Part shown: in pieces, positions 12,369 through 46,537 of the stretch
Layout of the letters: each line of letters opens with the position of its first letter
How positions within the stretch are numbered: position 1 is the stretch's first letter
From: an uncultured Pelagibacteraceae bacterium
GTDB taxonomy: Bacteria; Pseudomonadota; Alphaproteobacteria; Pelagibacterales; Pelagibacteraceae
NCBI GenBank assembly: GCA_902635685.1
Contig: CACPOY010000005.1
Coordinates: 1-61,302 of the forward strand
Reading direction: 5' to 3'
Length of the DNA: 61,302 nucleotides
Position numbers and translations under genes: made by a program
The notes under the pieces: model-generated
Told to the model about the DNA's origin: nothing
The model's input: the letters and a program-made list of their open reading frames with translations, nothing else
Database searches by the model: none

Positions 12369-12396
12369 TTGACTTTTTGAACCTCTATTATAGTTT
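12369..12396 (+). promoter_or_regulatory. Probable promoter for the ffh leader
   Basis: TTGACT at 12369-12374 is a good -35. Possible -10 hexamers are TAGTTT at 12391-12396 (16-base spacing), TATAGT at 12389 or TATTAT at 12386 (short spacing). Any of them would start the RNA at about 12398-12403, at the beginning of the structured leader. Confidence 0.4.
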
Positions 12397-12398
12397 GT

Positions 12399-12494
12399 GG
12401 CAGTTTCCGCAAAAACGTTAAATTTGCGGTGTCTTTGGAAACAAAGAGATCGACACTAGTCTGCGAGGGTTCGCCCACTAGTGCGATTACTGTT
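12399..12494 (+). ncRNA. Structured 5' leader of ffh, possible four-helix junction
   Basis: Read as RNA, this interval folds into three adjacent hairpins closed by an outer stem. Outer stem: 12399-12404 with 12489-12494 (four Watson-Crick and two G-U pairs). Hairpin 1: CCGCAAA 12407-12413 with TTTGCGG 12423-12429. Hairpin 2: TCTTTG 12432-12437, GAAA tetraloop, CAAAGA 12442-12447. Hairpin 3: 12449-12460 with 12477-12487, eleven pairs with A12453 bulged, and an inner GCGA/TCGC stem. Linkers are only 1-2 bases. The outer 3' strand abuts GGG at 12495-12497, the likely ribosome binding site for ATG 12508. It lacks the conserved SRP RNA apical sequence. A cis-acting leader for ffh is my inference. 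Confidence 0.6.
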
Positions 12495-12507
12495 GGGTGT
12501 AATAAAT

Positions 12508-13866
12508 ATGTTTGAAAATTTGACTAATAAATTTGAGGAAGTTTTTTCCTCTTTAAAAAAAGCACCATCACTAGATGAAAATCAAGTAGATGAGGGATTA
12601 AGAGGTATTAGGCAGGCCTTGTTAGAGGCAGATGTATCTCTTGAAGTTGCAAAAGACTTCATCGAAAAAGTAAAACCAAAAGCTCTAGGTAAAGAAATTA
12701 TCAGATCGACATCCCCTGGAGATATGGTTGTGAAGATCGTTTATGACGAATTAGTCAGTTTGCTTGGTGAAAAAAATGATGATGTAAATCTCAACGCAGT
12801 CCCGCCTGTACCAATGATGTTGGTTGGACTTCAGGGCTCTGGTAAAACTACTACAACTGCTAAACTAGCAAGGTATCTAGAGAACACTAAAAAAAAGAGA
12901 GTAATGATGGTTAGTTTAGATATCTATAGGCCTGCTGCACAAGAACAATTAAAATTATTAGGTGAACAAAATAATATTATAACTTTACCGATAATTGAAG
13001 GTCAGCAACCAAATGAAATTTGTCAAAGAGCTTTAAGTGCTGCAAATTTAAATGGCGCAGATATAATTCTATTTGATACCGCTGGTAGAACTCAAATAGA
13101 CTTGCAGATGATGAGTGAAATTAAGCAAATTGAAAATACTATTAACCCTGCAGAGATATTTCTTGTTGCAGATTCATTAACAGGACAAGTGGCAGCGTCC
13201 GTCGCAAAAGAATTTAAAAACACTGTTAACCTCTCAGGAATAATCTTAACTAGAGCAGACGGAGATGCAAGGGGTGGAGCAGCAGTGAGTATGAAATTTG
13301 TGTCACAAGTACCAATTAAATTTTTAGGTATTGGTGAAAAAATTGAAAATCTTGAATTATTTCATCCAGATAGAATAGCAAATAGAATTCTTGGTATGGG
13401 AGATATCATATCTCTTGTAGAAAAAGCAGCTGAGGATTTAGGTGAGGAAAATATAAAGAAAGCTGAAGAGAATTTAAAAAAAGGTCAATTTTCAATGCAG
13501 GATTATTTAACACAATTAAGACAGATGAAAAAAATGGGAGGAATAGAAGGTGTGATGTCATTTATGCCTGGTGTATCTAAGGTTAAGTCCCAAATGGAAG
13601 CTGCTGGTATAGATGAAAGTGTTATCACTAAAAACGAGGCAATAATTTTGTCGATGACCAAAAAAGAACGAGAGAATCCAAAAATAATTAATGGTTCAAG
13701 AAAAAAAAGAATTGCTAATGGCTCTGGTACAGATCCAGCCACTATCAATAAATTGCTTAAACAATTTAAAATGATGTCAGAAATGATGAAAAAAATGTCA
13801 AAGGGAAATCTGAAAGGTATGTCTGATAAAGGAATACCACCAGAGTTATTTAATCAATTAAAATAA
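12508..13866 (+). CDS. ffh: Signal recognition particle protein Ffh
   Basis: 452-residue SRP54 GTPase that binds signal peptides and SRP RNA. The N domain is followed by GLQGSGKTTTTAKLA (P-loop), DTAGRTQ and TRADGDARGG (G4, usually TKxD; Lys is replaced by Arg here). The C-terminal M domain is rich in methionines (MMSEMMKKMSKG). I place the start at ATG 12508 (MFENLTNKF), the family N-terminus; an in-frame GTG at 12481 would add nine non-family residues from the structured leader. First gene of ffh-rpsP-trmD-rplS. Confidence 0.96.
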   Translation: MFENLTNKFEEVFSSLKKAPSLDENQVDEGLRGIRQALLEADVSLEVAKDFIEKVKPKALGKEIIRSTSPGDMVVKIVYDELVSLLGEKNDDVNLNAVPPVPMMLVGLQGSGKTTTTAKLARYLENTKKKRVMMVSLDIYRPAAQEQLKLLGEQNNIITLPIIEGQQPNEICQRALSAANLNGADIILFDTAGRTQIDLQMMSEIKQIENTINPAEIFLVADSLTGQVAASVAKEFKNTVNLSGIILTRADGDARGGAAVSMKFVSQVPIKFLGIGEKIENLELFHPDRIANRILGMGDIISLVEKAAEDLGEENIKKAEENLKKGQFSMQDYLTQLRQMKKMGGIEGVMSFMPGVSKVKSQMEAAGIDESVITKNEAIILSMTKKERENPKIINGSRKKRIANGSGTDPATINKLLKQFKMMSEMMKKMSKGNLKGMSDKGIPPELFNQLK

Positions 13867-13877
13867 AAGGAGAGCAA

Positions 13878-14372
13878 ATGTTAAAGTTAAGGTTATCAAG
13901 AGGTGGCACAAAAAAAAGACCAGTATACAAGTTAGTTGTTGCAGACAGTAGGTTTTCAAGGGATGGAAGATTTATAGAAAAGGTAGGTTTTTTTAATCCG
14001 TTACTTCCAAAAGAAAAAAAAGAGAGAATAGGACTTGAAGCTGAAAGAATTAAATATTGGTTGGGTCAAGGAGCAAAACCAACTACAAGAGTGGCAAGAA
14101 TTCTAGGAGAAAATGAGTTAATGCCTATGCCTGTTAACGGAAATAATCCTCAAAAAGCTATTCCAAAAAAAGATAGAAAAAAAGAAGCATCAACAGAAGC
14201 CAAAAAAGAAGAAGCTCCTAAAGCAGATGCAGCACCAGCAGCAGAAGCAAAAAAAGAAGAAGCTCCTAAAAAAGAAGAAGCTCCTAAAGCAGATGCAGCA
14301 CCATCAGCAGAAGCAAAAAAAAAAGAAGAAGCTCCTAAAAAAGAAGAGGCTTCAAAAGGGGAAAAAAAGTAA
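13878..14372 (+). CDS. rpsP: Ribosomal protein S16 with long repetitive C-terminal tail
   Basis: The first 80 or so residues are a normal bS16 (MLKLRLSRGGTKKRPVYKLV, DSRFSRDGRFIEKVGFFNP, GAKPTTRVARIL). The protein continues to 164 residues, about twice the usual length, with a low-complexity tail of Lys, Glu, Ala and Pro containing a 22/23-residue tandem repeat beginning EAPKADAAP. The tail should be disordered and project from the 30S body. A strong AAGGAG site (13867-13872) precedes the ATG. The next gene is trmD; rimM, normally in between, is absent. Confidence 0.96.
   Translation: MLKLRLSRGGTKKRPVYKLVVADSRFSRDGRFIEKVGFFNPLLPKEKKERIGLEAERIKYWLGQGAKPTTRVARILGENELMPMPVNGNNPQKAIPKKDRKKEASTEAKKEEAPKADAAPAAEAKKEEAPKKEEAPKADAAPSAEAKKKEEAPKKEEASKGEKK
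14211..14345 (+). repeat. Tandem in-frame repeat inside rpsP, about 66 bp x 2
   Basis: Two copies, 14211-14276 and 14277-14345, both starting GAAGCTCCTAAAGCAGATG and near identical. The second has an extra in-frame AAA codon in its A-run and a Ser codon in place of one Ala. Each copy encodes 22 or 23 residues of the S16 tail. The near identity suggests recent duplication or slippage. Confidence 0.9.
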
Positions 14373-14386
14373 TTTAAAAAATCATC

Positions 14387-15073
14387 ATGTTCCAAGCTCA
14401 AGTATTTACTTTGTACCCAGAATTTTTTCCTGGCCCTCTTGCTAAGGGTCTTTATGGAAAAGCTCTATCTAATAAGTTATGGAATTTGAATGTTGTAAAT
14501 ATAAGGGATGCAGCAACAGATAAACATAAAACTGTTGATGACACTCCGTATGGAGGTGGAACAGGAATGTTACTTAAACCAGATATATTAGCAAAATCGT
14601 TAGACCAAAGAGTAAAAAAAGATGAAAGAATTTTTTATTTATCACCTAAGGGAAAAAAGTTTGACCAAAAATTTGCAAAAGATTTATCAAAAGAAAAATC
14701 TATCTCTCTAATTTGTGGTCATTTTGAAGGAGTTGATGAGAGAGTTTTAGATACAAGAAATATAGAGGAAATAAGTATAGGAGATTATGTTTTGTCTGGT
14801 GGAGAAACTGCTGCATTAGTTGTGCTTGATACCATTTTAAGACTTTTACCTGGTGTACTAGGAAATAAAAAATCTGCAATTGATGAAACCTTTGAAAATG
14901 GTCTTTTAGAGTACCCCCAATATACAAAACCTCAAATTTGGGAGGAAAAACCAGTACCCGAGGTATTATTATCTGGAGATCATGCTAAAATTAAAGACTG
15001 GCGTTTATCTCAATCTGAGGCTATAACTCGCGACCGAAGACCAGATTTGTGGCAAAAATATAAGAAAAACTAA
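14387..15073 (+). CDS. trmD: tRNA (guanine-N1)-methyltransferase TrmD
   Basis: 228-residue SPOUT methyltransferase making m1G37 in tRNAs, which prevents +1 frameshifting. Visible motifs are VDDTPYGGGTGML (tRNA/guanine site), LICGHFEGVDERV and ISIGDYVLSGGETAALV (trefoil knot, AdoMet site). Length is normal. It starts 14 bases after rpsP, with no rimM between, and is followed at once by rplS, keeping the usual order otherwise. Confidence 0.96.
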   Translation: MFQAQVFTLYPEFFPGPLAKGLYGKALSNKLWNLNVVNIRDAATDKHKTVDDTPYGGGTGMLLKPDILAKSLDQRVKKDERIFYLSPKGKKFDQKFAKDLSKEKSISLICGHFEGVDERVLDTRNIEEISIGDYVLSGGETAALVVLDTILRLLPGVLGNKKSAIDETFENGLLEYPQYTKPQIWEEKPVPEVLLSGDHAKIKDWRLSQSEAITRDRRPDLWQKYKKN

Positions 15074-15088
15074 TTGAACAATTATAGA

Positions 15089-15664
15089 ATGAAAACAATC
15101 GAGGAAATAAATCAACATAATGTTAAAAAAATTCTATCAGAGAAAAAAATTCCTGATTTTTTTGCTGGAGATGTAGTTAAAGTAGGTGTCAGAATTACAG
15201 AGGGTAAAAAAGAGAGAATACAGTTTTTCGAAGGCGTTTGTATTGCAAAGAAAAATAGAGATTTGAACTCGTCATTTACAGTCAGAAAAATTTCATTTGG
15301 AGAAGGTGTTGAAAGAACTTTTCCACTATATGGGACTGTGATTGACTCTATTAAAGTAATCCGTTCAGGCAAAGTCAGAAGAGCAAAGCTTTACTACCTA
15401 AGGGATAGAACAGGAAAATCAGCAAGGATTGCTGAAAAAATAAGAAAAAAAATTGGCATTGATATTGATGTAAAGCCTGAAACGGTAAATGAGGAAAATC
15501 TTGCCCCAACAAATAAAGAAATTGAAACTGAGATAAATACAAAGGTTGTGTCAACATCGGATGAAAAAAAAGAGGAAACTACTAAAAAAGAACCTCAAAT
15601 AGATGCACCTAAAGCTGATATTAAAGCAGAAAAAAAACTTGAAAATCCCTCAGAAAAAAAATAA
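15089..15664 (+). CDS. rplS: Ribosomal protein L19 with charged C-terminal extension
   Basis: bL19 core ([59 protein letters not shown]-type segment) occupies about the first 125 residues. The remaining 65 form a Lys/Glu-rich tail ending PSEKK, much longer than the usual L19 of about 115-130 residues and similar in composition to the S16 tail. I choose ATG 15089 (MKTIEEIN), giving 191 residues; TTG at 15074, directly after the trmD stop, is possible and adds five residues. Confidence 0.93.
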
Positions 15665-45050: not shown

Positions 45051-46187
45051 TTATCCGTTGAGTAATTTTATAGCGTAATTCAATTGGTTATCTGTTTCTG
45101 TTTTAATTCTAAATTCATCATTTTCCTCTAAAATTTCAATATCTGGAGAAACACCTACTTCCGAGATAGATTTACCAGAAGGAAGATAATATTTAGCTAT
45201 TGTCAACCTGATAGCCCCATCATTCTTTAAGGGTATTATTGATTGCACAGATCCTTTTCCAAAACTATTTTCACCTAAAAGTATTGCTCTTTTATGGTCC
45301 TTTAAAGCACCTGCAACAATTTCAGAAGCTGAGGCTGAACCATAATTTATTAAAACAATTAATACTTTTCCATTTGTTAAATCACCTTTTTTAGCAAACC
45401 ATTTTCTATTTTCAGAGGCTTTTCTACTTTTTGTAGAAACTATTTCGCCATTATCTAAAAAAAAATCAGAAATTTTTATCGCCTGGGATAGAAGACCACC
45501 CGGGTTGTTCCTTAAATCTAAGATATACCCTCTCAAATTTTTATTTTTTTCTAATTCTTTAATTTGTTTTTCTACTTGAGTGTCACTATTTTCATTAAAA
45601 GAAGTTAATCTTATATATCCAATATTTTTTTCTAACAAATCTGCTTTTACAGATTGGATCTGTATGATTTCTCTCACAATTTTAAAAGTAAGAGCTTTTC
45701 TCTCACCCCTTCTCCTAATTGTTAGTTCGATTGCAGAACCAACTGGGCCCCTCATTAAATCTACTGCTTCGCTCAAAGACTTTCCTTGAACTTGAATTTC
45801 ATTTATTTTGACAATATAGTCTCCTGCTTTAATACCAGCTTTAGAGGCTGGTGTGTCGTCAATAGGTGATATAACTTTTACAACGCCAGACTCCATACTA
45901 ACTTCAATACCAAGTCCACCAAACTTACCACTCGTCTCAGTTTGCATTTCATTAAAAATTTCAGGTGACATATAAGCTGAATATGGATCTAAAGACTGGA
46001 GGAGACCGTTTATAGCAGAGTCCATACTTTCGGACTGATTAATTTCATCAACATATTCTTTATTAATTTTTTCAAGAACTTCACCAAATAAGTCAATTTT
46101 TTCATAAATGTTTTGTTCAGATGAATTTACAAGTGGTAATGAAAATAAATTAAATAGAATAATTATTATAAAAACTTTTTTTTTCAT
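45051..46187 (-). CDS. ctpA: Carboxy-terminal processing protease (S41)
   Basis: 378-residue periplasmic protease. A Sec signal (MKKKVFIIIILFNLFSLPL) starts at ATG 46187, which overlaps the rsfS stop by one base; an upstream in-frame ATG at 46226 adds a charged stretch before the signal and is unlikely. A PDZ domain (GLGIEVSMESGVVKVISP) precedes the protease with catalytic Ser in YGSASASEIVAGAL and Lys in SFGKGSVQSI. Acts on envelope proteins. Confidence 0.94.
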   Translation of the reverse strand: MKKKVFIIIILFNLFSLPLVNSSEQNIYEKIDLFGEVLEKINKEYVDEINQSESMDSAINGLLQSLDPYSAYMSPEIFNEMQTETSGKFGGLGIEVSMESGVVKVISPIDDTPASKAGIKAGDYIVKINEIQVQGKSLSEAVDLMRGPVGSAIELTIRRRGERKALTFKIVREIIQIQSVKADLLEKNIGYIRLTSFNENSDTQVEKQIKELEKNKNLRGYILDLRNNPGGLLSQAIKISDFFLDNGEIVSTKSRKASENRKWFAKKGDLTNGKVLIVLINYGSASASEIVAGALKDHKRAILLGENSFGKGSVQSIIPLKNDGAIRLTIAKYYLPSGKSISEVGVSPDIEILEENDEFRIKTETDNQLNYAIKLLNG

Positions 46188-46537
46188 TATATTATCAATT
46201 TTTCTTTTGGGATTAATTCTGCCCACATTTTTTCTAGCTCATAAAATTTTCTTTTTTCAGGATGAAAAATATGAATTACTAGATCAATACCATCTACTAA
46301 TTTCCATTCATTACTATCTTTACCTTCGATTTTGGAATCTTTAATACCATTATCTTTTAGTTTATTTAAAACTTGCTCTGACAAAGATTGAATATGTCTA
46401 GATGAGGTACCACTGGCTATTATCATATAATCAGCCATAGAACTTTTATGTTTTAAATCAATACTGACTATATCCAAAGCTTTATTGATATCTAATGTTT
46501 GTATTATGATTTTTTTGATCTCTGATATTTTATCCAT
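46187..46537 (-). CDS. rsfS: Ribosomal silencing factor RsfS
   Basis: 116-residue RsfS/Iojap protein that binds L14 and blocks subunit joining when nutrients are low. Segments DIVSIDLKHKSSMADYMIIASGTS-like start, the SSRHIQSLSEQVL helix and LVDGIDLVIHIFHPEKRKFYELEKMW are diagnostic. ATG 46537 (MDKISEIKK) is preferred; 46558 would run into nadD. In many alphaproteobacteria rlmH follows rsfS, but here ctpA does. Confidence 0.93.
   Translation of the reverse strand: MDKISEIKKIIIQTLDINKALDIVSIDLKHKSSMADYMIIASGTSSRHIQSLSEQVLNKLKDNGIKDSKIEGKDSNEWKLVDGIDLVIHIFHPEKRKFYELEKMWAELIPKEKLII

Follow-up and report, generated by a model that had tools for sequence, protein, structure and literature searches.

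In the space separating ffh from the minus-strand dapF, our window (the whole 61,302-nt stretch analysed here, from an uncultured Pelagibacteraceae bacterium) holds a structured RNA that belongs to a known, so far incompletely described family. A scan with Rfam 15 assigned positions 12439-12492 to RF01793 (ffh RNA or "ffh motif") with a score of 47.4 bits, where the gathering threshold is 35. The full element is a leader of ~90 nt that is linked to a TTGAC promoter, carries three conserved hairpins and follows the rpsP-(rimM)-trmD-rplS operon, not SRP. We propose, with a probability of about 0.6, that this RNA acts as an autogenous r-protein leader of the (ffh)-rpsP-(rimM)-trmD-rplS operon with S16 as the first candidate ligand and L19 as the second, a leader of the rpsP operon because the RNA stays with those genes where ffh seems to have been lost or moved. 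The three hairpins, the ties to the promoter and to the rpsP operon, and the retention of the RNA in genomes with ffh undetected or at another place all come from comparison among genomes.

Folding of positions 12380-12510 gave -41.7 kcal/mol, compared with -28.12 ± 3.75 kcal/mol for dinucleotide shuffles (z = -3.62; 0/200 as good). An earlier note on this DNA had described a 7-bp hairpin and a 6-bp hairpin with a GAAA loop, both of which are present in the window fold (Table 1), together with a long bulged hairpin whose stem, bulged A and inner 4 bp are likewise present, with 5 + 7 bp around the bulged A and not the 11 bp counted. It overlooked the extension of the GAAA hairpin (12427-12430/12449-12452) across a G.G mismatch, which RNAalifold added unprompted, as well as the Rfam membership, yet described more of the RNA than Rfam models; its suggestion that the element could be among published Pelagibacter RNA candidates is borne out by the match to RF01793. 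The hallmark of that family, a bulged hairpin whose internal loop has two conserved C residues, was found (C12461; CC at 12475-12476), and the characteristic location before ffh holds in the window, not in the lineages f46 and G223 described below. As the note had stated for tRNA and SRP RNA signatures, a tRNA search of the window found none and SRP RNA models gave no match at the locus. Elsewhere in the window, a second Rfam family, RF02800 (Rp_sR47), matched positions 45211-45515 on the plus strand at 62.1 bits (gathering score 60), antisense inside an ORF on the minus strand (45051-46226) that by reading resembles a CtpA-type S41 protease; this match may reflect only protein-coding conservation.

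Table 1. Coordinates of the promoter, leader hairpins and operon genes in the window
Feature	Position	Strand	Description	Evidence
-35 element	12369-12374	+	TTGACT	Sequence; TTGAC placement in homologs
Likely -10 element	12391-12396	+	TAGTTT, 16-nt spacer	Sequence; similar layout in many homologs
P2 (hairpin 1)	12407-12429	+	CCGCAAA 12407-12413 / UUUGCGG 12423-12429	Fold; homolog pairing
P3 (hairpin 2)	12427-12452	+	CGGU 12427-12430 / AUCG 12449-12452, G.G mismatch, UCUUUG/CAAAGA, GAAA loop 12438-12441	RNAalifold; strand test; compensation
P4 (hairpin 3, Rfam ffh hairpin)	12454-12483	+	CACUAGU/ACUAGUG, internal loop CU/CC, conserved C.C, inner GCGA/UCGC, loop GGGU	RF01793 match; strand test
ffh (SRP54)	12508-13866	+	First operon gene in window	PF00448, PF02978, PF02881
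rpsP (S16)	13878-14372	+	Proposed ligand gene	PF00886
trmD	14387-15073	+		PF01746
rplS (L19)	15074-15664	+	Alternative ligand gene	PF01245

Conservation of the hairpins was assessed with an alignment-free strand test, in which each genome's own two strands were compared with strands dealt out among genomes. Class-wide, this returned z = -12.7 for P4, -11.1 for P3 and -7.2 for the upper part of P2 (-11.0 with its base), in permutation tests that leave the relatedness among genomes in place. Pairing of the P2 base taken alone was more weakly supported (30/5000 shuffles as good), and outside SAR11 the MFE of the P2 region was slightly better than that of shuffles (mean z -0.66 to -0.93), with 10 or 13 of 52 genomes below z -1.5. 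In an alignment of 74 rows (A3) that was fitted to the structure by the model, 23 of 25 pairs carried a compensatory change (P2 upper part 4/4, P3 10/10, P4 9/11) and 96.1% of cells were paired, compared with at most 44.5% when slid and 0/500 shuffles as good. Hairpins 2 and 3 are strongly compensated across Alphaproteobacteria, and hairpin 1 moderately so. Class-wide, 35 combinations occur at the base of P3. All four positions pair in 24 of these combinations (for example GGCC/GGCC, GUGU/AUAC, UGCU/AGCA and CAAU/AUUG) and in 160 of the 174 genomes whose P3 is compact, counts that are biased toward pairing by the choice of the upstream strand by complementarity and that include several assignments that look wrong (for example f66, f106 and f112), some with P2 swallowed. 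The 5-bp lower part of the third stem (GAUCG/CGAUU), which forms in the window MFE, was also considered and rejected, showing no preference for the cognate strand (1054, 1698 and 1189 of 2000 shuffles as good).

The TTGACT-type promoter proposed in the earlier note is present in the window, and each of the 178 homologs carries TTGAC 54-100 nt ahead of the Rfam match, whereas control windows of equal width further upstream contained it in 17/178 and 4/177. Taking TAGTTT as the -10 element, transcription would be expected to start near 12402-12404, in which case most of the 5' strand of the outer stem that the note had drawn around the hairpins would be promoter. Being conserved, structured and promoter-linked, the 5' leader is best read as a cis-regulator, as the note had supposed.

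RF01793 was detected in 114 of 150 relatives and, at E <= 0.001, in 80 of 288 Alphaproteobacteria, 63 of these over the gathering score. The homolog set assembled from these searches comprised 178 distinct genomes, 115 from the SAR11 order and 63 others, with 13 of the 80 class matches left out; one sample consisted of 80 of 88 handles, with 8 left out. Ffh was encoded just downstream of the RNA in 173 of the 178 homologs, the other five consisting of three with rpsP instead and two at contig ends. A three-hairpin model (R2; P2 + P3 + P4) built from 74 sequences matched 186 of the 288 alphaproteobacterial genomes, namely all 80 RF01793 genomes and 106 more, a total that includes the training set, since the training sequences came mostly from the sampled genomes. 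Across the phylum, R2 matched 53 of 199 sampled genomes, of which about 136 lie outside the class judging by list order, and every matching row was the sequence's own genome or one of the same class. Among the matches listed, which covered 71 of the 106 added genomes and a second match in G150, ffh came next on the same strand in 71 of 72 cases, at a distance from the R2 match to the Ffh match of -1 to 72 nt in those 71, the exception being G223. The R2 search used no ffh information, so this linkage provides an independent validation of the model. Two further genomes bear mention beside these searches. In G172 (L379), ffh precedes rpsP with neither an RF01793 nor an R2 match, and a hairpin followed by a T run lies before ffh. 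The two R2 matches in G150 (C63:3933-4038 and C595:1967-2071) lie one before ffh and the other near a contig end with, by reading, an Ffh-like start downstream; this genome is listed at 7% contamination and may be a mixed assembly.

Linkage of the RNA to rpsP was without exception in the genomes where both could be placed. In every one of the 145 genomes that have the two features on one contig, the r-protein gene lay downstream of the RNA in the same orientation: 75/75 from the RF01793 set of 80 (five left out, three having no S16 match and two having the features on different contigs) and 70/70 of the 71 R2-added genomes (G364 had no S16 match). The distance from RNA to rpsP was 35-56 nt in four genomes; in the others, where rpsP comes after ffh, it was 1.37-5.06 kb. 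No genome examined carried the RNA with ffh while rpsP was demonstrably unlinked, the features of G150 and G297 being on different contigs. Genomes of Rhodobacterales type have same-strand genes between ffh and rpsP that by reading are acetyltransferase- and chorismate-mutase-like. rimM is not located between rpsP and trmD in the window, where trmD follows rpsP by 14 nt (14372-14387), nor in the f46 locus L202, and is present in L199.

The position of the RNA where ffh is missing or displaced carries most of the argument. Family f46 (G385, G187, G299 and G432-G446) comprises 18 draft genomes that are 55-97% complete, five of them at 95-97%. The SRP54 GTPase domain common to Ffh and FtsY was detected over cut-off in 0/18 of these genomes, whilst controls were positive in 14/14 and SAR11 in 2/2; the partial SRP54 match in G434 scored 20.5 bits, below cut-off. 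Nevertheless, RF01793 was found in 14 of the 18, and all 14 copies lay directly before rpsP. The f46 locus corresponds to that of the window minus ffh, with divergent dapF, the RNA, rpsP, rimM (in L199), trmD, rplS and leuC, and both trmD and rplS were present in 7/7 loci of sufficient length. The base of P3 has changed on both sides in f46 while remaining paired (CGGU/AUCG, CAAU/AUUG, CAGU/AUUG), so selection has maintained the RNA there. Ffh and FtsY thus both appear absent from an entire family of Alphaproteobacteria, a loss that is strongly indicated by the domain searches and, f46 and G223 being drafts, rests on many incomplete genomes; our literature search found no report of such an absence. 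A search for SRP RNA in f46 gave no match, and likewise gave none in the window's own genome, so that it could not discriminate. The draft genome G223, of family f82, has ffh on a different contig; its only R2 match is located ~50 nt ahead of the rpsP start, with TTGACA upstream of the RNA, and after rpsP come an ORF that by reading is RimM-like, then trmD and rplS. The element is therefore a conserved structured RNA in the 5' UTR of an r-protein operon that tracks the r-protein gene when gene order changes (14/14 copies in f46, and G223), two properties used to recognise r-protein leaders. In a separate genome without an R2 match, G206 (L385), a hairpin resembling P4 (CAUCAA..GCGA..UCGC..UUGAUG), with a U-rich stretch after it, was seen by eye ~100 nt before rpsP, the 4 kb upstream being free of ffh; this may be another instance of the RNA accompanying rpsP only. 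It may also be that f46 just inherited its arrangement of RNA and rpsP upon deletion of ffh.

Hairpins 1 and 2 cannot form completely at the same time, since the base of P2 (CCG/CGG) shares 12427-12429 with P3 and the CGGU strand at 12427-12430 is claimed both by CCG in hairpin 1 and by AUCG in hairpin 2, and the two folds therefore compete. In G062 and G232 all three partners have changed together (CCA, UGG, AUCA), and in G160 two have changed. For the window alone, placing CGGU in P2 was computed to be favoured over P3 by 5.8 kcal/mol, which counts against the proposed leader reading, and the hairpin-1 form was preferred in 12 of the 16 genomes computed, with the hairpin-2 form preferred in four (G062, G232, G160 and G190). 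A strand-exchange switch between the two hairpins is plausible.

The ligand, the sign of its effect and the strand exchange are inferences. S16 (or, as second choice, L19) present in excess of its free rRNA site would bind P3-P4 with its conserved C.C mismatch and hold the CGGU strand in P3 rather than P2, and this binding would lower expression of the operon. Ribosome access is the likely point of action, because P4 ends 24 nt before the ffh ATG in the window, and ffh would be carried along in most Alphaproteobacteria by virtue of being the first gene. Likeness to the rRNA site of the protein, a trait that not all r-protein leaders show, was sought in three rRNA loci, where the best R2 match reached 9.1 bits (E = 0.42) and a hand-made P4 pattern gave no match, a result that weighs against the proposal; 23S was annotated by Rfam only in L341 of these loci, and L340 is a 760-base fragment. 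An intrinsic terminator or attenuator was considered and rejected for the window, in which P4 is followed, read from its last base, by GCGAUUACUGUUGGG, with no U run; the sequence after P4 is U-rich in some other lineages.

Other readings of the element account for parts of these observations. Autoregulation by Ffh, with Ffh or the SRP restricting its own production through binding to the leader, corresponds to the sensing of Ffh or SRP RNA suggested in the earlier note and fits the adjacency of ffh in nearly all homologs (173/178) and within 72 nt in 71/72 further R2 matches. However, it is contradicted in the lineages where it is testable, with the RNA retained before rpsP in f46 genomes that have no detected Ffh or FtsY domain and accompanying rpsP, not ffh, in G223; the locus bears no likeness to SRP RNA models, and Meyer et al. 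(PMC2704228), in the accessible part of their paper, see no resemblance to the part of 4.5S RNA that Ffh binds. We consider this explanation improbable. The same leader mechanism could instead respond to L19, RimM or TrmD, a variant that we regard as unlikely. In its favour, the operon includes trmD and rplS in the window, in the 7/7 f46 loci and in G223, and the accessible part of PMC7247131 names L19 leaders as known from Firmicutes and as reported for Flavobacteria. Favouring S16 over these, rpsP adjoins the RNA where ffh is absent, which is a weak guide because the ligand of a leader is often not encoded by the first gene (PMC7247131, same part), and RimM in particular is disfavoured by the absence of its gene from the window operon. 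S16, L19, RimM and TrmD are, as candidate ligands, not separated by these sequence comparisons.

The element might also be a riboswitch for a metabolite, a small RNA acting on its own, or a structure that stabilises the 5' end of the operon mRNA, and the conserved C.C mismatch could form a pocket. Rfam types RF01793 as an sRNA, and the accessible parts of two reports list it as expressed in Bartonella (PMC7717549) and tabulate it among the sRNAs of Mesorhizobium huakuii (PMC5596092). The constant association of the RNA with a single operon throughout the class points instead to control in cis by a product of that operon, and the missing U run after P4 in the window speaks against an intrinsic terminator there; we give this group of explanations low odds. 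In the same part of PMC5596092, the RF01793 entry of M. huakuii 7653R is assigned to the intergenic region Pb-19, a label that would seem to denote a plasmid and not the chromosome. The closed four-helix junction described in the earlier note, in which a stem at 12399-12404/12489-12494 encloses the three hairpins, is near the MFE of the window and would be its functional fold on yet another reading. Own outer strands paired better than shuffled ones in other Alphaproteobacteria (20/2000 as good) and with all lineages pooled (0/2000, a test that also picks up base-composition differences between lineages), but a wider 3' window in the other Alphaproteobacteria raised the count to 370/2000. Within SAR11, the stem failed the strand test, own strands pairing no better than shuffled ones (455/2000 as good in the window's family and 1946/2000 in the sister family), and across 83 unique sequences 59.8% of its cells were paired, while the other three helices reached 93.5%, 96.5% and 94.3%. 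Its 5' strand probably also lies before or at the transcription start. Of the four helices whose covariation the note had proposed checking, the three hairpins are thus compensated and the closing stem is without support within SAR11, and we consider the closed junction very unlikely to be the functional fold.

A bolder composite of these points is put forward tentatively: that RF01793 is misnamed, representing one hairpin of an S16-binding leader that would be the first control element recognised for rpsP-rimM-trmD-rplS in Proteobacteria, that CGGU acts as a strand-exchange switch between CCG of hairpin 1 and AUCG of hairpin 2, and that the RNA has outlived the loss of the SRP pathway in one family. 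Our literature search, which covered few subscription journals, found no paper linking the ffh motif to rpsP, and a 2024 review (PMC10931766), in its accessible part, describes the regulation of the rpsP operon as lacking any information. If the leader does control this operon in the class, its regulation can be studied directly in common laboratory alphaproteobacteria, using purified S16 and L19. Were the proposal true, an RNA family described in 2009 would gain a corrected structure and a likely function, and ffh would be under ribosomal control in most of the Alphaproteobacteria.

The element may be set beside four known systems. SRP (4.5S) RNA resembles it solely through the link to ffh, and differs in that no SRP family matched at the locus and that our RNA persists without a detected SRP54 domain. 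The L19 r-leader of Firmicutes and Flavobacteria (PMC7247131, accessible part) shares with it an r-protein gene that is also in this operon, but occurs in other phyla and was compared by gene content rather than structure. Closer in proposed function is the S16 r-leader of Flavobacteria, for which the accessible part of Eckert and Weinberg 2020 (PMC7247131) describes a leader of rpsP (and rimM) with S16 as the likely ligand; that RNA belongs to another phylum, ffh is unmentioned in that part of the paper, and the comparison is one of description, not structure. RF01793 itself was introduced by Meyer et al. 2009 (PMC2704228), in the part accessible, as one bulged hairpin that might help to regulate ffh, occurring in all sequenced Rhodobacterales, Sphingomonadales and Rhizobiales and not in Rhodospirillales or Caulobacterales. 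Our element shares its position and its bulged hairpin with two conserved C; whereas the published family is one hairpin tied to ffh, here there are two more hairpins, a fixed promoter, a competing pairing and a tie to rpsP, and the detected range widens from 80 to 186 of 288 genomes. Ultimately, the family itself was known, and what is new here is its fuller architecture together with a proposed functional assignment that draws on natural gene loss and movement.
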